This document shows, piece by piece, positions 25,552 through 33,040 of a DNA stretch of 64,000 nucleotides. The position numbers and the translations under genes are program-made. Within the stretch, counting starts at the first letter, position 1, and each line of letters opens with the position of its first letter. A model generated the notes under the pieces. The model was not told the DNA's origin, did not search any database, and worked only from the letters and a program-made list of their open reading frames with translations. This stretch comes from Bacillota bacterium (lineage in GTDB: Bacteria; Bacillota_I; Bacilli_A; Erysipelotrichales; Erysipelotrichaceae): assembly GCA_023249475.1 (NCBI GenBank), contig JAHFCO010000008.1:1-64000 (forward strand). Reading direction: 5' to 3'.

Positions 25552-25612
25552 GGATATAAAAAAGCCTTTTTAAGGCTTTGATTTTCTATGGTGCCAACAG
25601 GAGAAACTCGGA
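25552..25612 (-). repeat. tRNA-Thr 3'-end-like repeat R3 with terminator
   Basis: On the minus strand: T-arm remnant TCCGAGTTTCTCC, acceptor half TGTTGGCACCA, a short spacer, then the terminator AAAGCCTT-N3-AAGGC followed by T-run and TATCC. The order and spacing match the tRNA-Thr gene end at 32301-32378 and repeat R2. No tRNA body precedes it. It is the most diverged of the three copies and marks the left edge of the AT-rich region. Confidence 0.65.
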
Positions 25613-26696: not shown

Positions 26697-27107
26697 CTAT
26701 CTTCTCATAAGTTTGATTCTACGGATTAATCTTGTGTATCGAACAACTTGAACGATGAGCAGAATCATGATTAGGATGAAAACGATGAAAACAAACAATA
26801 AGGCAATGCCGGGATCGATTGATTCGATACTTTTCAGTATTTCAACGGTAATCCATAACGTACCTGGAAACACTACGAGAAACAAAACGAAGATGGACGC
26901 TAGGATTTTATACGCATTGTTTTGAAGTTTCTCTACTGGAATCGCTTGATGAGTCTGGATATACTCTGTATCTTTTACCCTTTGTCTTTCGGTCCATAGC
27001 ATGTAGACAACACGAAGAAGTGTTATTGTCAGAATACCTAAAACCATCCCTCCAAGATATTCCCATTTACCTTGGATCAAAGTCTCCAGAATATCAACGA
27101 TATTCAT
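26697..27107 (-). CDS. Three-helix membrane protein of unknown function
   Basis: 136 residues starting MNIVDILETL. Three hydrophobic segments (about residues 20-40, 68-92, 103-127) separated by a polar loop and ending in a basic tail (RRIKLMRR). Start choice: AAAGGAGG lies 11 bases before the ATG at 27107, and a promoter (TTGAAT-17-TATAAT, 27133-27161) puts the transcription start just upstream, excluding the longer frame. No family recognised. It lies between repeats R3 and R2. Confidence 0.65.
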   Translation of the reverse strand: MNIVDILETLIQGKWEYLGGMVLGILTITLLRVVYMLWTERQRVKDTEYIQTHQAIPVEKLQNNAYKILASIFVLFLVVFPGTLWITVEILKSIESIDPGIALLFVFIVFILIMILLIVQVVRYTRLIRRIKLMRR

Positions 27108-27132
27108 CGCGAGGTAATCCTCCTTTAATCGC

Positions 27133-27161
27133 ATTATAACTACTTTGATTTTGATATTCAA
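27133..27161 (-). promoter_or_regulatory. Promoter of the three-helix membrane protein gene
   Basis: On the minus strand TTGAAT (27156-27161), a 17-bp spacer, and TATAAT (27133-27138). Confidence 0.7.
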
Positions 27162-27227
27162 TTCGATTTCATTATTAAGCAAAGTAACCGTTTTTACCCC
27201 AATAATAAAAGAACCTTCTCTTAAATT

Positions 27228-27304
27228 CTGTTTCACTTGGACATTTGGACATGAAAAAAAGCTTTTTTTAAAGGCTTTGCTTGTAAATGGTGCCATCATG
27301 GAGA
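27228..27304 (-). repeat. tRNA-Thr 3'-end repeat R2 with terminator
   Basis: About 85 percent identical over 77 bp to 32301-32378. It holds the tRNA acceptor end CTCCATGATGGCACCA, the spacer, and a terminator hairpin (AAAGCC/GCTTT with T-run), then GGACA-like sequence beyond the terminator. There is no tRNA body upstream of it. This is the expected left junction of an element inserted at the tRNA-Thr gene. Confidence 0.8.
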
Positions 27305-27452
27305 GCAGAGCACTAGCGTATAAATTATGATGAAAATAAAGCAAATGCACAAAAGTATAGGCATTTTGATAGAAATTGTGGAAAGAAATCGATTAATGAT
27401 AATATAGATCGACGTATTCATTTCACATTTGCTTCAATTGAAGTTTAGTATA

Positions 27453-27646
27453 TTAAACGGAAAGTTTACTTAATTCCTTGACTACCATTGATGGAAAAAA
27501 GTATTCTAAGTCCTCGTTCCCAAAGTAAAGTGTGAGAATTTCAGGGGTGTATCCGCTACTGCTACCATGCTTTTTCTTCTTTTGTGCGCATACAACTTTA
27601 ACATTATGGATCAACAAAAGTTGACCTAATCCAAAATTCGAATGTC
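27453..27646 (-). pseudogene. Possible C-terminal remnant of a protein gene
   Basis: An open frame of about 64 codons without an ATG ends at 27453. It reads as plausible protein (GYTPEILTLYFGNEDL, FFPSMVVKEL) but starts just after a TGA and has no RBS. I do not recognise it. It may be a decayed gene fragment or chance. Confidence 0.25.
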
Positions 27647-27672
27647 ATAATTTTGTATATCAAGGAAGATGA

Positions 27673-28121
27673 ATATGTTTAGGAAAGAAATATTTATTTC
27701 GCTTTTGTTAATTTTTCTTACTGGTTGTGAGTCCCGTGACAGTTTAGATTTAACATATAGTAATATAGCGGAATATTTAATGTACGAGTAATTACTACTG
27801 GTTTAGTCGGAAGTAATAATTCTATATGTATCAGTACTTTTTTAGAGATTTAGTATTTGCGCTAGTTGTTGAACCACGATCAAAAGAGAATAAATTTGAA
27901 GTTTGAGTTTTGAAGTTACTGGTTCAACGTATACTTGTGTAAGAAAGTCAGCTACATTGTCTATGCGAGATTCTGCATTTTGTGTTGTAACTGTATCGAA
28001 AGGTGGAGAAGCTAAGAAAGTTAAAGTTATGGAAATTGGTGATTCGAGAAATGGAAGTGATTTTGCTGGAATTGGAAATTCATCTGTTATTATTAGACAC
28101 GTAAGTGGTAAAGTTTCTTAA
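27673..28121 (+). pseudogene. Decayed lipoprotein gene
   Basis: An ATG at 27673 opens a lipoprotein signal peptide (MNMFRKEIFISLLLIFLTGC, lipobox FLTGC) and then stops after about 40 codons. The same kind of sequence goes on in other frames: a segment reading VRVITTGLVGSNNSICISTF and a longer frame at 27903-28121 (VTGSTYTCVRKSATLSM ... GIGNSSVIIRHVSGKVS). At least two frameshifts and stops break the gene. No family recognised. Confidence 0.55.
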
Positions 28122-28228
28122 CCTGAAACTACAAGTTGTATTTATATATTCAATTCAGTAAAGCAACATCATCGATAATATGTTAAAACTAGATAGAGAA
28201 AATAAAGTTAGTTAAGCGAAAGGTGGAA

Positions 28229-28800
28229 ATGGACAAATTGAATAAGTTCTCAAGTTTTTATAAAAAAAATATTCAGAGATTGTTGTCATAAAAAAAATTC
28301 TAGATAGTAAGTATTGTATTCAGGATGATGACATTTTACTCTACAAGTATTTCTCAAATGATTTCTATATATCTAAAAATGTGATTCCTCATATATCAGC
28401 CGATTCTACTATTGAGTTTATTCTGATTACCTGGGATAAACTTAAGACGTTTATAAACATTTTAGACTTTAACAAAGTCTCGTTCTTAGTATTGGGGAAA
28501 GAAGATGAAATTTTGAAATTCAAAAAGTTTGAAGGGTATCTAGAAAATTACAACCGAATTCTCAAGGACGCAAGAGAAAGAGATTTAATTGAATCCTCTA
28601 AAATAACCACGAAAAGAAAAGAAGTTGCTCAAGAAAGCTCAGACGAGAAACCTTCTAAATCTCAAATAATAAAACAGTCACCATATTTTAGTAAACGAAA
28701 TTTCTATGAAAACTATATTCATCGTAAAGCAGGACAAGCTTTTGATCCAAGCAGCAATCTAAAATCGCCACGCTTAATTTGGAATGGCAGGAAAAAATAG
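28229..28800 (+). pseudogene. Frameshifted hypothetical gene (A8 tract)
   Basis: An ATG at 28229 preceded by AAAGGTGG begins MDKLNKFSSFYKK and then meets a run of eight A (28262-28269). In the starting frame it stops 21 codons in; a -1 shift at the A-run joins it to a frame open from 28264 to 28800 that has no good start of its own. The joined protein would be about 190 residues, with a charged middle and the tail QSPYFSKRNFYENY. Either a sequence error, a decayed gene, slippage phase variation, or programmed frameshift. Unknown family. Confidence 0.55.
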
Positions 28801-28885
28801 AGTCAGAATTATATCCAAACATTCATGAATGAACACATTCCCTTTAGTTTTGTATTGAGAAATAGTTCTCCAAAGAAATTCATTA

Positions 28886-29896
28886 TTAGCCTTTTTTTGA
28901 AATCTGGTTAGAAGTGACTCTTGGATAATTTAGGATATCGAAATCTAGAGGTATACTATCCATCGCCTTATGTGCAAAATCGAAATTACATGATTTGGAA
29001 AAGACACTTGAATAACTAGAAGCAAATTGCAGACTATTCATAGCATCGATTGTACTTTCATCCAATAAAATAACTCTATTTGAAACCCCTTTACCTCTCT
29101 TACTAAAGTTCGACTTTTCGAACAATATTAATACTAACTTTGGGGACAATGGATAATTAATTATGGACTTCTTTGAAAAAAAACCACCGTTTTTACCTTC
29201 TCCAGGTATATAAATGGCTATCGGATTATCCGAAGTAACAAAATCGCGATCTGAGTCATTATATCCAATAACAAATATATATTCTAAAAGTTTAGCTGTT
29301 ATCTCTTTGTTAGTTAATTCTTTTTCAATCATTTTAAGTGTAATTATGTTTTGAAGAGATCTGTTTTTTTGATAAATTGGCGCACTTTCGATTATGTCAG
29401 TAATTTGCTGAGAATACTCTTTCCCAACCATCATATTTTCTATTGATTCTTCAACTACTGAGAAAAGTTGATTTGTTTTGATACTTGATTCTTTGCTCCT
29501 AATATATTGCGAAGCAATAAATTGAGCTAATATTGATTTATTTTTTTGGTTTAGCCAAGAAACTCTTTTTCCACTAAAATTGCATACAGAGGGCAACGAG
29601 CATAAATCAGAGACAATTCTCGACATTGGATTTTCAATTTTGGTTTCAAAGATCTTCTCAAGGACTTGATTATCAAAACTATACTTCTCACCAAGTTGTT
29701 TTCCATAACACTTAATTACATCGTTATTATTCCAATCTATATCATAGAAGTATCTTTCACATGCAACCTTTTTTATTTCCTGATTTAGCCTTACTAATCT
29801 TGTTCGCTTATCAAATACATTAATCTTTGTTTTTCTATCATTTGTGGAAAATTGCCTTAAGTAGAACTGCGGTACATAGTGTTCTTGAATTACCAT
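28886..29896 (-). CDS. DUF4238-family protein
   Basis: 336 residues. The N-terminal HYVPQFYLRQFS, followed by INVFDKRT and ERYFYDID, is the DUF4238 signature. A later segment (FVTSDNPIAIY) matches the conserved NP motif of these proteins. Function of the family is unknown; it is patchily distributed and often lies in variable genome regions. Start at 29896 follows GGGGGATGAA; an ATG four codons upstream lacks an RBS. AT-rich codon use unlike the flanking core genes points to transfer. Confidence 0.8.
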   Translation of the reverse strand: MVIQEHYVPQFYLRQFSTNDRKTKINVFDKRTRLVRLNQEIKKVACERYFYDIDWNNNDVIKCYGKQLGEKYSFDNQVLEKIFETKIENPMSRIVSDLCSLPSVCNFSGKRVSWLNQKNKSILAQFIASQYIRSKESSIKTNQLFSVVEESIENMMVGKEYSQQITDIIESAPIYQKNRSLQNIITLKMIEKELTNKEITAKLLEYIFVIGYNDSDRDFVTSDNPIAIYIPGEGKNGGFFSKKSIINYPLSPKLVLILFEKSNFSKRGKGVSNRVILLDESTIDAMNSLQFASSYSSVFSKSCNFDFAHKAMDSIPLDFDILNYPRVTSNQISKKG

Positions 29897-30011
29897 TTCA
29901 TCCCCCATTTACTTGCATTATTGTTCTTGAAATATTCTGTGGTCTCAATATAAAGCCGTGATTGCGCGACATATCAAAGTGTAGGTATTATCCCTCTGCT
30001 ATTTATTGTGT

Positions 30012-30165
30012 GATCACGTCTCACCTTTGAAACATATGGCTGGGCTGACTTATTTTCTCGACAAAATCCTTGAAGACAATTAAAGAGAACCATCAGGAGT
30101 CTCATCTGATCACCATGTTGAAGTATCATAACCGATTCTCTTAAAAATCTAGAGTGTGAAATAAA
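30012..30165. repeat. Structured 150-bp repeat, copy 1
   Basis: Diverged direct repeat of 30821-30970. It keeps ATCACGTCTCACC at one end, ACATATG, and a folded 3' half: outer stem AGAGAA/TTCTCT (30084-30089 with 30136-30141) enclosing hairpin ATCAGG/TCTGAT with loop AGTCTCA. The third arm is weak in this copy. It lies about 100 bp past the end of the small gene at 30267. Confidence 0.75.
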
Positions 30166-30266
30166 TCGGATAATTGAGAAGTTCATATGTAAACATAGAA
30201 CTCAAATATTTGCATGCTTTCTATATACCGTAAATGGTCTCTTAAACTCTCATAGAACTTTGTATA

Positions 30267-30593
30267 CTATTTTTTCTTCTTTTGATCTTCGTAGTATTGT
30301 TTGCTATAGTCCACTACTTCGGGATGATTACCAAACATCTCTGTAAGAAATCCATACTTCTTTAAGAATGTGTCCTTCTTTTCATCTGTGTCAAAAAATT
30401 CTTCAGTTCGCTTTCCGGGTGACTTAATGTTTTCTTTATTATCAAAAAACTTCGAGCTTAGCCCTTCCCGAAACTTAACAGGGGTTCCTTTGTCAATGTA
30501 ATAGCCAGATGAGACCCCATTTATTTCGCTATCTTTTCTTAATCCATCATACTTTCCGTCAGCTAAATTTTTCAGTAAATCTTTAATAGCCAT
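30267..30593 (-). CDS. Small hypothetical protein of the island
   Basis: 108 residues, lysine-rich and hydrophilic (MAIKDLLKNLADGKYDGLR ... YYEDQKKKK), no signal or membrane segment. An RBS GGAGG lies nine bases before the ATG. Not recognised. Flanked on both sides by the structured 150-bp repeats, so gene plus repeat looks like a unit. Confidence 0.6.
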   Translation of the reverse strand: MAIKDLLKNLADGKYDGLRKDSEINGVSSGYYIDKGTPVKFREGLSSKFFDNKENIKSPGKRTEEFFDTDEKKDTFLKKYGFLTEMFGNHPEVVDYSKQYYEDQKKKK

Positions 30594-30820
30594 TCCGTGA
30601 TTCCTCCATCATGCCCTTCCCACAAATTTTCAAAACAGAACCGAGTTTTAACAACGATTTTCTTGAATTGTAAGTGAGTTGGTGCTCTGTTATCTATATT
30701 TTATCACAACAATATGAGTCCAATCGCTGATATGTCAAAACTCAATACATTCTCAATATGTGCCCATGGGAAAGCGAAAACTATCCAGAGAGATAATGCC
30801 TAAGTTAAGTCACATCACTC

Positions 30821-30970
30821 TATCACGTCTCACCAATGAGACATATGAATGTAAGGACACTCAAAGGCTAGGACAGATTGACAAAAAGTAAAAAGAACCG
30901 TCAGCAGTCTCAGCTGATCGCCATGTTGGGGATCATGGCCGGCTCTCAAGAATACTGTATCGTGAAATCA
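30821..30970. repeat. Structured 150-bp repeat, copy 2
   Basis: Contains hairpin GTCTCA-CCAA-TGAGAC (30827-30842) and a near-perfect three-way junction: outer stem AGAACCG/CGGCTCT (30894-30900 with 30940-30946, one mismatch), hairpin TCAGC-AGTCTCA-GCTGA (30901-30917), and hairpin GCCATG-N8-CATGGC (30920-30939). The loop AGTCTCA, identical in copy 1, is complementary to TGAGAC of the first hairpin, so a pseudoknot is possible. It lies downstream of the DUF1232 gene. Confidence 0.75.
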
Positions 30971-31188
30971 ATTATTCGAATACATAACAATATGAAATAT
31001 TGTACTTCATCAGCGTTGAATTCTTGATAAATCTATTAATAGAGTTTCAATTATGTTCAACCTTTCAGTTTCTCTTCTTGATGATTGTCGCTAAAGCAAT
31101 ATCACCATACGATGCAGATTCTACCAGATATTTAAATATCATGAAAAAAGCATCGTCAAATCTATTAAAATAGTTAATCCATTCTTGG

Positions 31189-31608
31189 TTAATTTGACTC
31201 TTTCTTTTCTTCGACTTTTTTGTCGATAGGATCCAATTCCTTTTCATCATAATCTCCAAACCATACATGCAACTTTGCTTTAGCGCTAGTTTTTGTATCC
31301 TCTTCAATAAACATAGCAATAGTAACAAGTGTAGCTAACAATATTGCCCAATCATCTAGTTGCCCAACAATCGGTATAGCATCAGGAACAGCGTCAAGTG
31401 GCGAAATAAAATAACCTAGAGATCCTACAATTAAAGTTTTTGCCCAATTAGGTGTCGAGGATTGTTGCAAAACATAAAAGAGCAATAATACAACATATAT
31501 TGTTTTAATTCCGAATGTCTTTGCATACTTGACAACTTTTTCTAATAGTTTTACGTCAGAATAAGCCTCTGTATACTTAGGATCACTGAGTGTTTCATTT
31601 ATTTCCAT
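31189..31608 (-). CDS. DUF1232 (YkvA-like) membrane protein
   Basis: 139 residues. The central SPLDAVPDAIPIVGQLDDWAIL matches the DUF1232 motif (SPiDLiPdfiPvlGylDD), and hydrophobic segments flank it. The family is small and of unknown biochemical role. Start at 31608 follows GAGGGG. It is in the AT-rich island between R2 and the tRNA gene, with a structured repeat downstream. Confidence 0.8.
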   Translation of the reverse strand: MEINETLSDPKYTEAYSDVKLLEKVVKYAKTFGIKTIYVVLLLFYVLQQSSTPNWAKTLIVGSLGYFISPLDAVPDAIPIVGQLDDWAILLATLVTIAMFIEEDTKTSAKAKLHVWFGDYDEKELDPIDKKVEEKKESN

Positions 31609-31823
31609 TTTATTTTCCCCTCAATTTTTCTATTTATCGAAATTATACCATATTGATAGTGATATAAGAATTTGAAATCATGTTTAATTAATTCGTACTA
31701 ATTGTAATTAATCTTTCATTTGCCCAAGTGTCTAGGTCAAATACTAATTACATGACCACATCATTTGATAATTTTCTTCTTTCATAATACTTCAGTTAAG
31801 ATTCAAGAAATGTTTAGTCCGAT

Positions 31824-32183
31824 TCACTTATACTTGCCTAAAATTTCCGCCACTTGTTGTTCTTCGATAATTCTACTACTTACAAACTCAGATAATGTTT
31901 TTTCTTTGTCCTTTATATAGACTGAATGCCATGTTAAACATGCTGTTGGAACTATATCGGTAAATGGCAACATTTCCTCTACCATCCCACCAATAGCCAT
32001 GTATTTTCGCTTAGGAAATAGAACAAAAATAAGCAATCCACTTATCGGACCCCAAATTATATCCGTAGTTCCGCCTGCAACTGGAATAAAGGCACTTAAA
32101 AGCCCTAACATATCAATCATAAACGCAAATATGAGTTTAAGATTTCTTATTTTATTGTACTTAGCTAATAGATTGCTCTTCAT
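31824..32183 (-). CDS. Small two-helix membrane protein
   Basis: 119 residues with two hydrophobic segments (about 17-37 and 44-57) and a polar C-terminus (KDKEKTLSEFVSSRIIEEQQ). GGAGG lies 11 bases before the ATG. The pattern LSAFIPVAGGTTDIIWGPISG recurs in small uncharacterised membrane proteins; the neighbouring DUF1232 gene shares the theme of a Pro/Asp-rich membrane loop. Function unknown. Confidence 0.6.
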   Translation of the reverse strand: MKSNLLAKYNKIRNLKLIFAFMIDMLGLLSAFIPVAGGTTDIIWGPISGLLIFVLFPKRKYMAIGGMVEEMLPFTDIVPTACLTWHSVYIKDKEKTLSEFVSSRIIEEQQVAEILGKYK

Positions 32184-32300
32184 TTCGTAATCATCCTCCG
32201 GTTTCTATTACTGAAATCATATGCTTTTCAAGAACAATAAAGCAACATTTTTTGAAATTGACTCAGGAATTTTTGATGTTTTCTCAAAAAGTGTTCACAT

Positions 32301-32378
32301 TTGTTCCACTTCGACAAACGGACATAAAAAAAAGCCTTTGTTTAAAGGCTTTGATTACAAATGGTGCCATCACGGAGA
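32301..32378 (-). repeat. tRNA-Thr 3'-end repeat R1 (intact gene copy)
   Basis: The 3' end of the tRNA-Thr gene with its terminator and about 25 bp beyond; matched by R2 (27228-27304, about 85 percent) and R3 (25552-25612, weaker). It is the right junction of the accessory region. Confidence 0.8.
32326..32352 (-). terminator. Terminator of the tRNA-Thr gene
   Basis: On the minus strand AAAGCCTTT-AAA-CAAAGGCTTT followed by a run of T. It lies ten bases past the CCA end. Confidence 0.85.
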
Positions 32379-32435
32379 ATCGGACTCCGAACTGAGCATT
32401 ACCATTGCTCTGTTTTACCATTGAACTATGATGGC
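32362..32435 (-). tRNA. tRNA-Thr(GGT), slightly degenerate
   Basis: 74 nt with encoded CCA. Acceptor GCCATCA/TGATGGC, D-stem GTTC/AAAC (one C-A mismatch at 13-22), anticodon stem GAGCA/TGCTC with loop ATGGTAA (anticodon GGT), T-stem CGGAG/CTCCG. The T-loop reads TCCGATT: position 55, almost always T, is C. Cloverleaf otherwise complete. It serves as insertion site for the AT-rich islands. Confidence 0.82.
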
Positions 32436-32479: not shown

Positions 32480-33040
32480 CTATAAATACTTTTGTATACT
32501 TTGGTAGACCCGGGCGATGGGGAGTCCCATGACCGTATAATAGTCCCCGACGATCCCTTTGATGAAGAGCGCGCCCTTATCTTGGATCCCGTACGCTCCT
32601 GCTTTATCCAGGCAGACTTTGGTATCAACATACTTTTTAATCTGGTCTTCCGTCAAAGGAAAGAACTCGACGTCGGTTTCGGTGAAGAATTTCTCTTCCG
32701 AACCCGGACCGATGATACTGACGCCGGTGATGACTTTATGGACGCGCCCTGAAAGTTTACGCAACATTTCCATCGCGACCGGGACTTCGACCGGTTTTCC
32801 CAAGACTTCATCGTCGATGACGACGATAGTGTCGGCACCGATGACCACGGAATCCGGATGCTTCTGAAAAACCAAATGCGCCTTGCGGTATGCAAGATCG
32901 GCCACCGCATCCCCCAGCGGCAACTCGGCATTCAAGGTTTCGTCGACTTGCGGATTGATGATCGTAAACGGAATCTCACACAAAGCCATGAGTTCTCTGC
33001 GGCGAGGGCTTTGGCTCGCCAAAATGAGTTGCTTATACAT
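32480..33040 (-). CDS. maf: Maf-family nucleotide pyrophosphatase
   Basis: 186 residues. LILASQSPRRRELM at the N-terminus and VIGADTIVVIDDEVLGKP are the Maf signatures; PLTEDQIKKYV and DKAGAYGIQDKGALFI complete the fold. Members hydrolyse non-canonical or modified nucleoside triphosphates (dTTP/UTP or m7GTP types). Marks return to core chromosome after the island. Confidence 0.93.
   Translation of the reverse strand: MYKQLILASQSPRRRELMALCEIPFTIINPQVDETLNAELPLGDAVADLAYRKAHLVFQKHPDSVVIGADTIVVIDDEVLGKPVEVPVAMEMLRKLSGRVHKVITGVSIIGPGSEEKFFTETDVEFFPLTEDQIKKYVDTKVCLDKAGAYGIQDKGALFIKGIVGDYYTVMGLPIARVYQSIQKYL

Follow-up and report, generated by a model that had tools for sequence, protein, structure and literature searches.

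Introduction

Why should two diverged copies of a short sequence, set among the genes of a single bacterial locus, keep the same loop and the same capacity to fold? The initial annotation of the window, by which we mean the whole 64,000-nucleotide stretch of DNA analyzed, described such a pair and proposed that a three-way junction was under selection in both copies, either as RNA or as single-stranded DNA. The analysis below finds that observation sound once the strand is corrected; the repeats become candidates for a structured RNA of an undescribed kind, a status limited by there being two copies only. The features discussed are listed in Table 1.

Table 1. Features of the repeat locus (window coordinates; paired segments of a stem are separated by a slash)
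Feature	Position	Strand	Basis or remarks
Repeat copy 1	30013-30166		blastn repeat
Repeat copy 2	30822-30972		blastn repeat
Putative RNA, copy 1	30013-30162	-	5′ end 30162; repeat and consensus fold
Putative RNA, copy 2	30822-30968	-	5′ end 30968; repeat, consensus fold, own MFE z = -3.5
Three-way junction, copy 1	30085-30140	-	core pairs, core shuffle test
P2, copy 1	30133-30140/30085-30092	-	
P3, copy 1	30127-30132/30112-30117	-	
P4, copy 1	30106-30109/30093-30096	-	loop UGAGAC 30099-30104
Three-way junction, copy 2	30893-30947	-	P2 30940-30947/30893-30900; P4 loop UGAGAC 30907-30912
P5 (3′ hairpin, 9 bp), copy 1	30015-30036	-	arm GUUUCA
P5 (3′ hairpin, 9 bp), copy 2	30824-30845	-	arm GUCUCA
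DUF4238 gene, downstream of copy 1	28886-29908	-	Pfam PF14022, E = 5.4e-40; start probably ATG 29896
108-aa gene, downstream of copy 2	30267-30593	-	distant same-family homologues
DUF1232 gene, upstream neighbor of copy 2	31189-31608	-	Pfam PF06803, E = 2.4e-14; phrog_14750
AT-rich island containing both copies	27305-32320		32% GC against 54% in the host; missing from G001
tRNA-Thr (GGT), insertion site	32362-32435	-	
att-like repeat of the tRNA-Thr 3′ end and terminator	27244-27304		partner 32321-32378; further copy 25554-25612

The repeats and the island that carries them

A blastn comparison with the whole genome showed the two copies to be approximately 70% identical over about 150 bp (E = 5e-8), confirming the pair first placed at 30012-30165 and 30821-30970. 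No third copy was found in the whole 2.09-Mb genome. The junction (80% identical) and the P5 3′ hairpin (86%) are better conserved than the linker between them (47%). The loop AGTCTCA (UGAGACU on the minus strand) is the same in both copies, as had been reported.

Both copies sit on a laterally acquired island at a tRNA gene. The island is about 5 kb long, lies at the 3′ end of tRNA-Thr, and has flanks of about 54% GC. A close sister species (G001) has the same tRNA-Thr without the island, and its protein matching 32480-33040, a product that we take to be maf-like, is 99% identical; the RNA model described below found no match at the tRNA-Thr locus of this species. The att-like repeats have diverged from one another, and we saw no integrase-sized ORF within the island.

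A conserved fold on the minus strand

In the consensus fold, P2 (8 bp) closes P3 (6 bp) and P4 (4 bp), the latter capped by a 9-nt loop that includes UGAGACU; 3′ of this junction, a fast-evolving linker of about 48 nt is followed by P5 (9 bp). RNAalifold was run on the aligned pair and on 1000 column-shuffled alignments in which gaps and conservation were preserved. The minus strand gave -23.6 kcal/mol and z = -4.9, matched by 0 of the 1000 shuffles, whereas the plus strand gave z = -1.6 (p = 0.07) under the same scheme. The junction alone gave z = -3.6 on the minus strand against -1.1 on the plus strand in alignment shuffles, and the minus-strand z for the full alignment was -4.2 to -4.6 when shuffling was kept within windows of 15-60 columns. 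A conserved fold that exceeds chance on one strand is the general mark of a structured RNA, and it is found here on the minus strand. Comparison of the two sequences thus supports a selected three-way-junction fold on that strand: the junction proposed in the initial annotation stands, while its assignment to the plus strand does not, and the stems quoted there (AGAGAA/TTCTCT and AGAACCG/CGGCTCT) correspond to P2 seen from the plus strand.

All 27 consensus pairs are formed in each copy, as are all 18 pairs of the core junction, and pairing falls to 33-59% when the pairing partners are slid. Eight of the 27 pairs differ between the copies, each by one transition that leaves a G-U pair in one copy and a Watson-Crick pair in the other. 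Two-sided (compensatory) changes number 0 of 27 in a comparison of only two sequences, so that this is not true covariation; the earlier use of that word was too strong, even though the eight pairs do vary on one side. Transitions account for every one of the eight differences in paired columns, compared with 11 of the 39 located in unpaired columns. The same eight pairs would be A-C mismatches in a plus-strand structure, which favors a minus-strand RNA over the plus-strand single-stranded DNA that had been offered as the alternative.

When each copy is folded alone, copy 2 has a better fold than its own shuffles (z = -3.5) and copy 1 does not (z = +1.5). The whole MFE structure of copy 2, with 44 pairs, gave a non-significant result (p = 0.14), because its extra stems are not conserved. 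It is therefore the consensus fold, and not the whole MFE of copy 2, on which the support for the structure rests.

Possible alternative pairings of the P4 loop and P5

The hexamer UGAGAC in the P4 loop is identical to the sequence of the P5 3′ arm, and consequently the P5 5′ arm, GUYUCA, can pair with either. All six pairs between the P4 loop and the P5 5′ arm can form in both copies, as six Watson-Crick pairs in copy 2 and five plus one G-U in copy 1. The complementarity between loop and neighboring hairpin had been recognized in copy 2, and it extends to copy 1 when the minus strand is read. The loop-arm duplex is predicted at -6.0 kcal/mol in copy 1 and -9.0 kcal/mol in copy 2, near the values for P5 itself (-6.9 and -9.3 kcal/mol, respectively). 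The competing pairings suggest a two-state switch, as far as can be judged from sequence.

Searches for known families and relatives

At the gathering threshold of Rfam 15, only tRNA was matched in the window and both repeat copies were unmatched; below the threshold the best matches had E values of 6-10, and none was noteworthy. The statement that no known element could be named therefore stands against Rfam 15. We built a covariance model, R1, from the two copies and searched it in 58 genomes of the family, 295 of the order, 395 of the class and 295 of the phylum (the sets overlap). Besides the two copies themselves, nothing in these sets was better than E = 0.07. The weak matches (L031-L033, L057) were partial only and not credible. 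The search filters were strict, so distant copies could be missed. The search for further copies in related genomes, which had been suggested as a check, was thus negative, and the repeats remain an orphan pair.

No homologue emerged when 2.9 million viral contigs and 84,980 genomes were scanned for sequence patterns. The strict, exact pattern had no match in the genome contigs; a relaxed pattern gave eight loci, mostly arrays of an unrelated palindrome, without a match to R1. The viral matches were rejected: L026 lies in a terminase-like gene, L035 in a nuclease-like gene, L041-L046 are mostly palindrome arrays, and L067-L069 are antisense to a coding gene that, we presume, resembles DUF3489. 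Comparison with plasmids and phages by blastn gave nothing credible.

We note that the tandem arrays of the palindrome TGTCTCANNGGTGAGACA, found in Bacteroidaceae MAGs and viral contigs (L043-L047, L049, L054), look like a protein-binding operator or a centromere-type array. Six sequences tried in this connection had no match in the papers searched.

Neighboring genes

The minus strand carries, in this order, a 119-aa gene, the DUF1232 gene, RNA copy 2, the 108-aa gene, RNA copy 1 and DUF4238. The gene-then-repeat order first described holds on this strand (the 108-aa gene before copy 1, DUF1232 before copy 2); each copy, however, equally precedes another gene. Copy 1 is followed after about 100 nt by DUF4238, and copy 2 after about 230 nt by the 108-aa gene, so that each lies upstream of a same-strand gene, as a cis leader would. 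The two downstream genes have no relation to each other.

Promoter-like matches in the region are at the level of chance (21 found, 20.8 expected). One such sequence lies between copy 2 and the 108-aa gene, and if real it would count against reading copy 2 as a leader. No convincing terminator was seen 3′ of either copy. The padloc library of defense proteins, compared with the neighboring genes, gave nothing but one weak match (E = 0.085), which involves the ORF 26697-27350 at the island edge.

The predicted structure of the DUF4238 protein has a mean pLDDT of 36.5 and is unusable. The 108-aa protein is one of a small unnamed family, with homologues in three or more further genomes of its bacterial family that are 29-39% identical in the alignment. 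Relatives of DUF4238 are found in the order, in the class, and on plasmids of Priestia and Alicyclobacillus. Near these relatives and the 108-aa homologues, the RNA model had no credible match at the loci searched. The viral data gave no usable relative of the DUF4238, DUF1232 or 108-aa protein. At one further locus (L036:1480-3713), a DUF4238 gene adjoins genes encoding helicase-like and nucleotidyltransferase-like proteins, the latter presumably CBASS-type by eye; these neighbors hint at a defense context for DUF4238.

Possible roles of the repeat RNA

Since no Rfam family matches and no relative was found, the repeats may represent a regulatory RNA not yet described, and its role is a matter of guesswork. 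Our preferred reading, a tentative one, is that each repeat is an orphan structured RNA that may act as a cis regulator of the island genes. Each would be a non-coding RNA of about 150 nt, encoded on the minus strand of the acquired island in a long intergenic stretch ahead of an island gene, and would be transcribed ahead of that gene or as its leader. The arm GUYUCA would pair either inside P5 or with UGAGAC of the P4 loop, and the two pairing states would set the expression of the downstream gene. As the genes that follow the two copies are unrelated, the RNA would amount to a module joined to different cargo genes. Several observations count against this reading: there are only two sequences, with no double compensatory change, and copy 1 is unremarkable alone; no homologue was found that would show a conserved association with any class of gene; promoter-like matches do not exceed chance, and neither copy is followed by a convincing terminator; the distances to the two genes differ, and DUF4238 relatives elsewhere lack the RNA. 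The bolder proposal, that the pair belongs to an undescribed class of modular riboregulators in which a three-way-junction RNA ahead of unrelated cargo, its loop and 3′ hairpin competing for one partner, controls genes in cis or binds their products, we consider unlikely.

A comparison is provided by RCd22, a structured RNA of about 100-150 nt encoded by a mobile element in Bacillota. It starts 168 nt upstream of abiF, a gene on the same strand, which it controls and whose product it neutralizes (PMC12373285). The repeats resemble this system (abiF motif, RF03085) in being RNAs of that size class ahead of a same-strand gene on mobile DNA. They differ from it in having no match to RF03085 and no AbiF-type protein in the Rfam and protein family searches, in preceding two unrelated genes, and in having no tandem motif inside one RNA. 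With orphan riboswitch candidates and cis leaders they share a multi-branched RNA upstream of genes and two possible, mutually exclusive pairings; unlike these, they have two copies, no conserved function of the downstream gene and no identified expression platform.

The main rival is a trans-acting or protein-binding RNA, that is, an independent small RNA that would serve, for example, as an antitoxin or RNA partner to the protein encoded downstream, in the manner of RCd22-AbiF. The layout fits this analogy: on a mobile island, an RNA of about 150 nt with an invariant exposed loop precedes a gene of unknown function by some 100-230 nt. One type of RNA would, however, have to serve two proteins, since the downstream genes are unrelated; the relatives of DUF4238 found in the order, in the class and on plasmids occur without it; and no terminator was seen behind the RNA, nor was there a padloc match. 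We regard such a role as rather doubtful. Alternatively, the copies could be decayed remnants of one structured element, either the end of a small mobile element or an older RNA gene, with no present function, so that the fold would record past selection. The poorer fold of copy 1 relative to its own shuffles, its paired changes (mostly C-to-T relative to copy 2), the lack of a visible integrase-length ORF and the divergence of the att-like repeats are all in keeping with decay, whereas the retention of 27 of 27 pairs, with every transversion in unpaired columns, would be unexpected in a decayed pair. There are also no further copies, and we identified no terminal repeats that the pair shares with any known insertion sequence. 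Like MITEs and IS200-IS605-type ends, the repeats are short and hairpin-bearing and lie in an AT-rich island, but they have two copies only and, by eye, neither terminal inverted repeats nor a target duplication. Decay is, in our view, an unlikely explanation.

The gene-repeat-gene-repeat order around a single-gene unit might instead point to an element acting as DNA: a recombination or protein-binding site, used as a folded single strand or as the bound palindrome GTCTCA-N4-TGAGAC, with one-gene cassettes gained and lost. Tandem arrays of TGTCTCANNGGTGAGACA-type palindromes do exist in viral contigs and in unrelated genomes, and the repeats recall integron attC cassettes in being diverged, structure-keeping repeats between single genes in one orientation. 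However, the palindrome of copy 1 is broken as DNA (GTTTCA/TGAGAC) and kept as G-U RNA pairing, the genome itself has no other such palindrome, and the plus-strand fold is not supported. The attC core motifs GTTRRRY and RYYYAAC, which are mutually reverse-complementary, are absent from the repeat ends, with only distant single plus-strand matches at 30804 and 30473, and the support for the fold concerns an RNA and not an attC hairpin. An element of this kind is improbable. Less probable still is that the repeats are diverged fragments of a protein-coding gene. Copy 1 contains a 70-aa minus-strand ORF (29974-30186), and one frame of a 54-nt conserved block keeps 12 of 18 residues, but differences in the best frame number 2, 5 and 4 at codon positions 1, 2 and 3, with no third-position excess; the frames break in copy 2; and there is no Pfam, PHROG or credible tblastn match. 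We therefore rejected a coding origin.

If the repeat RNA is transcribed and functional, it would be a class of RNA absent from Rfam, on a small tRNA-integrated island beside genes of unknown function. RNA-gene pairs on mobile DNA have sometimes proved to be regulators or RNA antitoxins, as with RCd22-AbiF (PMC12373285). With two known copies, the pair is a lead for covariance-model searches of low-GC mobile elements and not an established class.

Further observations on the island

An extra GTCTCA (TGAGAC on the minus strand) lies at 29942-29947 on the plus strand, between copy 1 and the start of DUF4238, and five of the ten occurrences of GTCTCA in the window fall inside 29942-30912. The tRNA-Thr 3′ end recurs in three att-like copies (Table 1), which suggests that islands have been stacked at one tRNA; the first stretch between these copies carries an isochorismatase-family gene that is common to the sister species.
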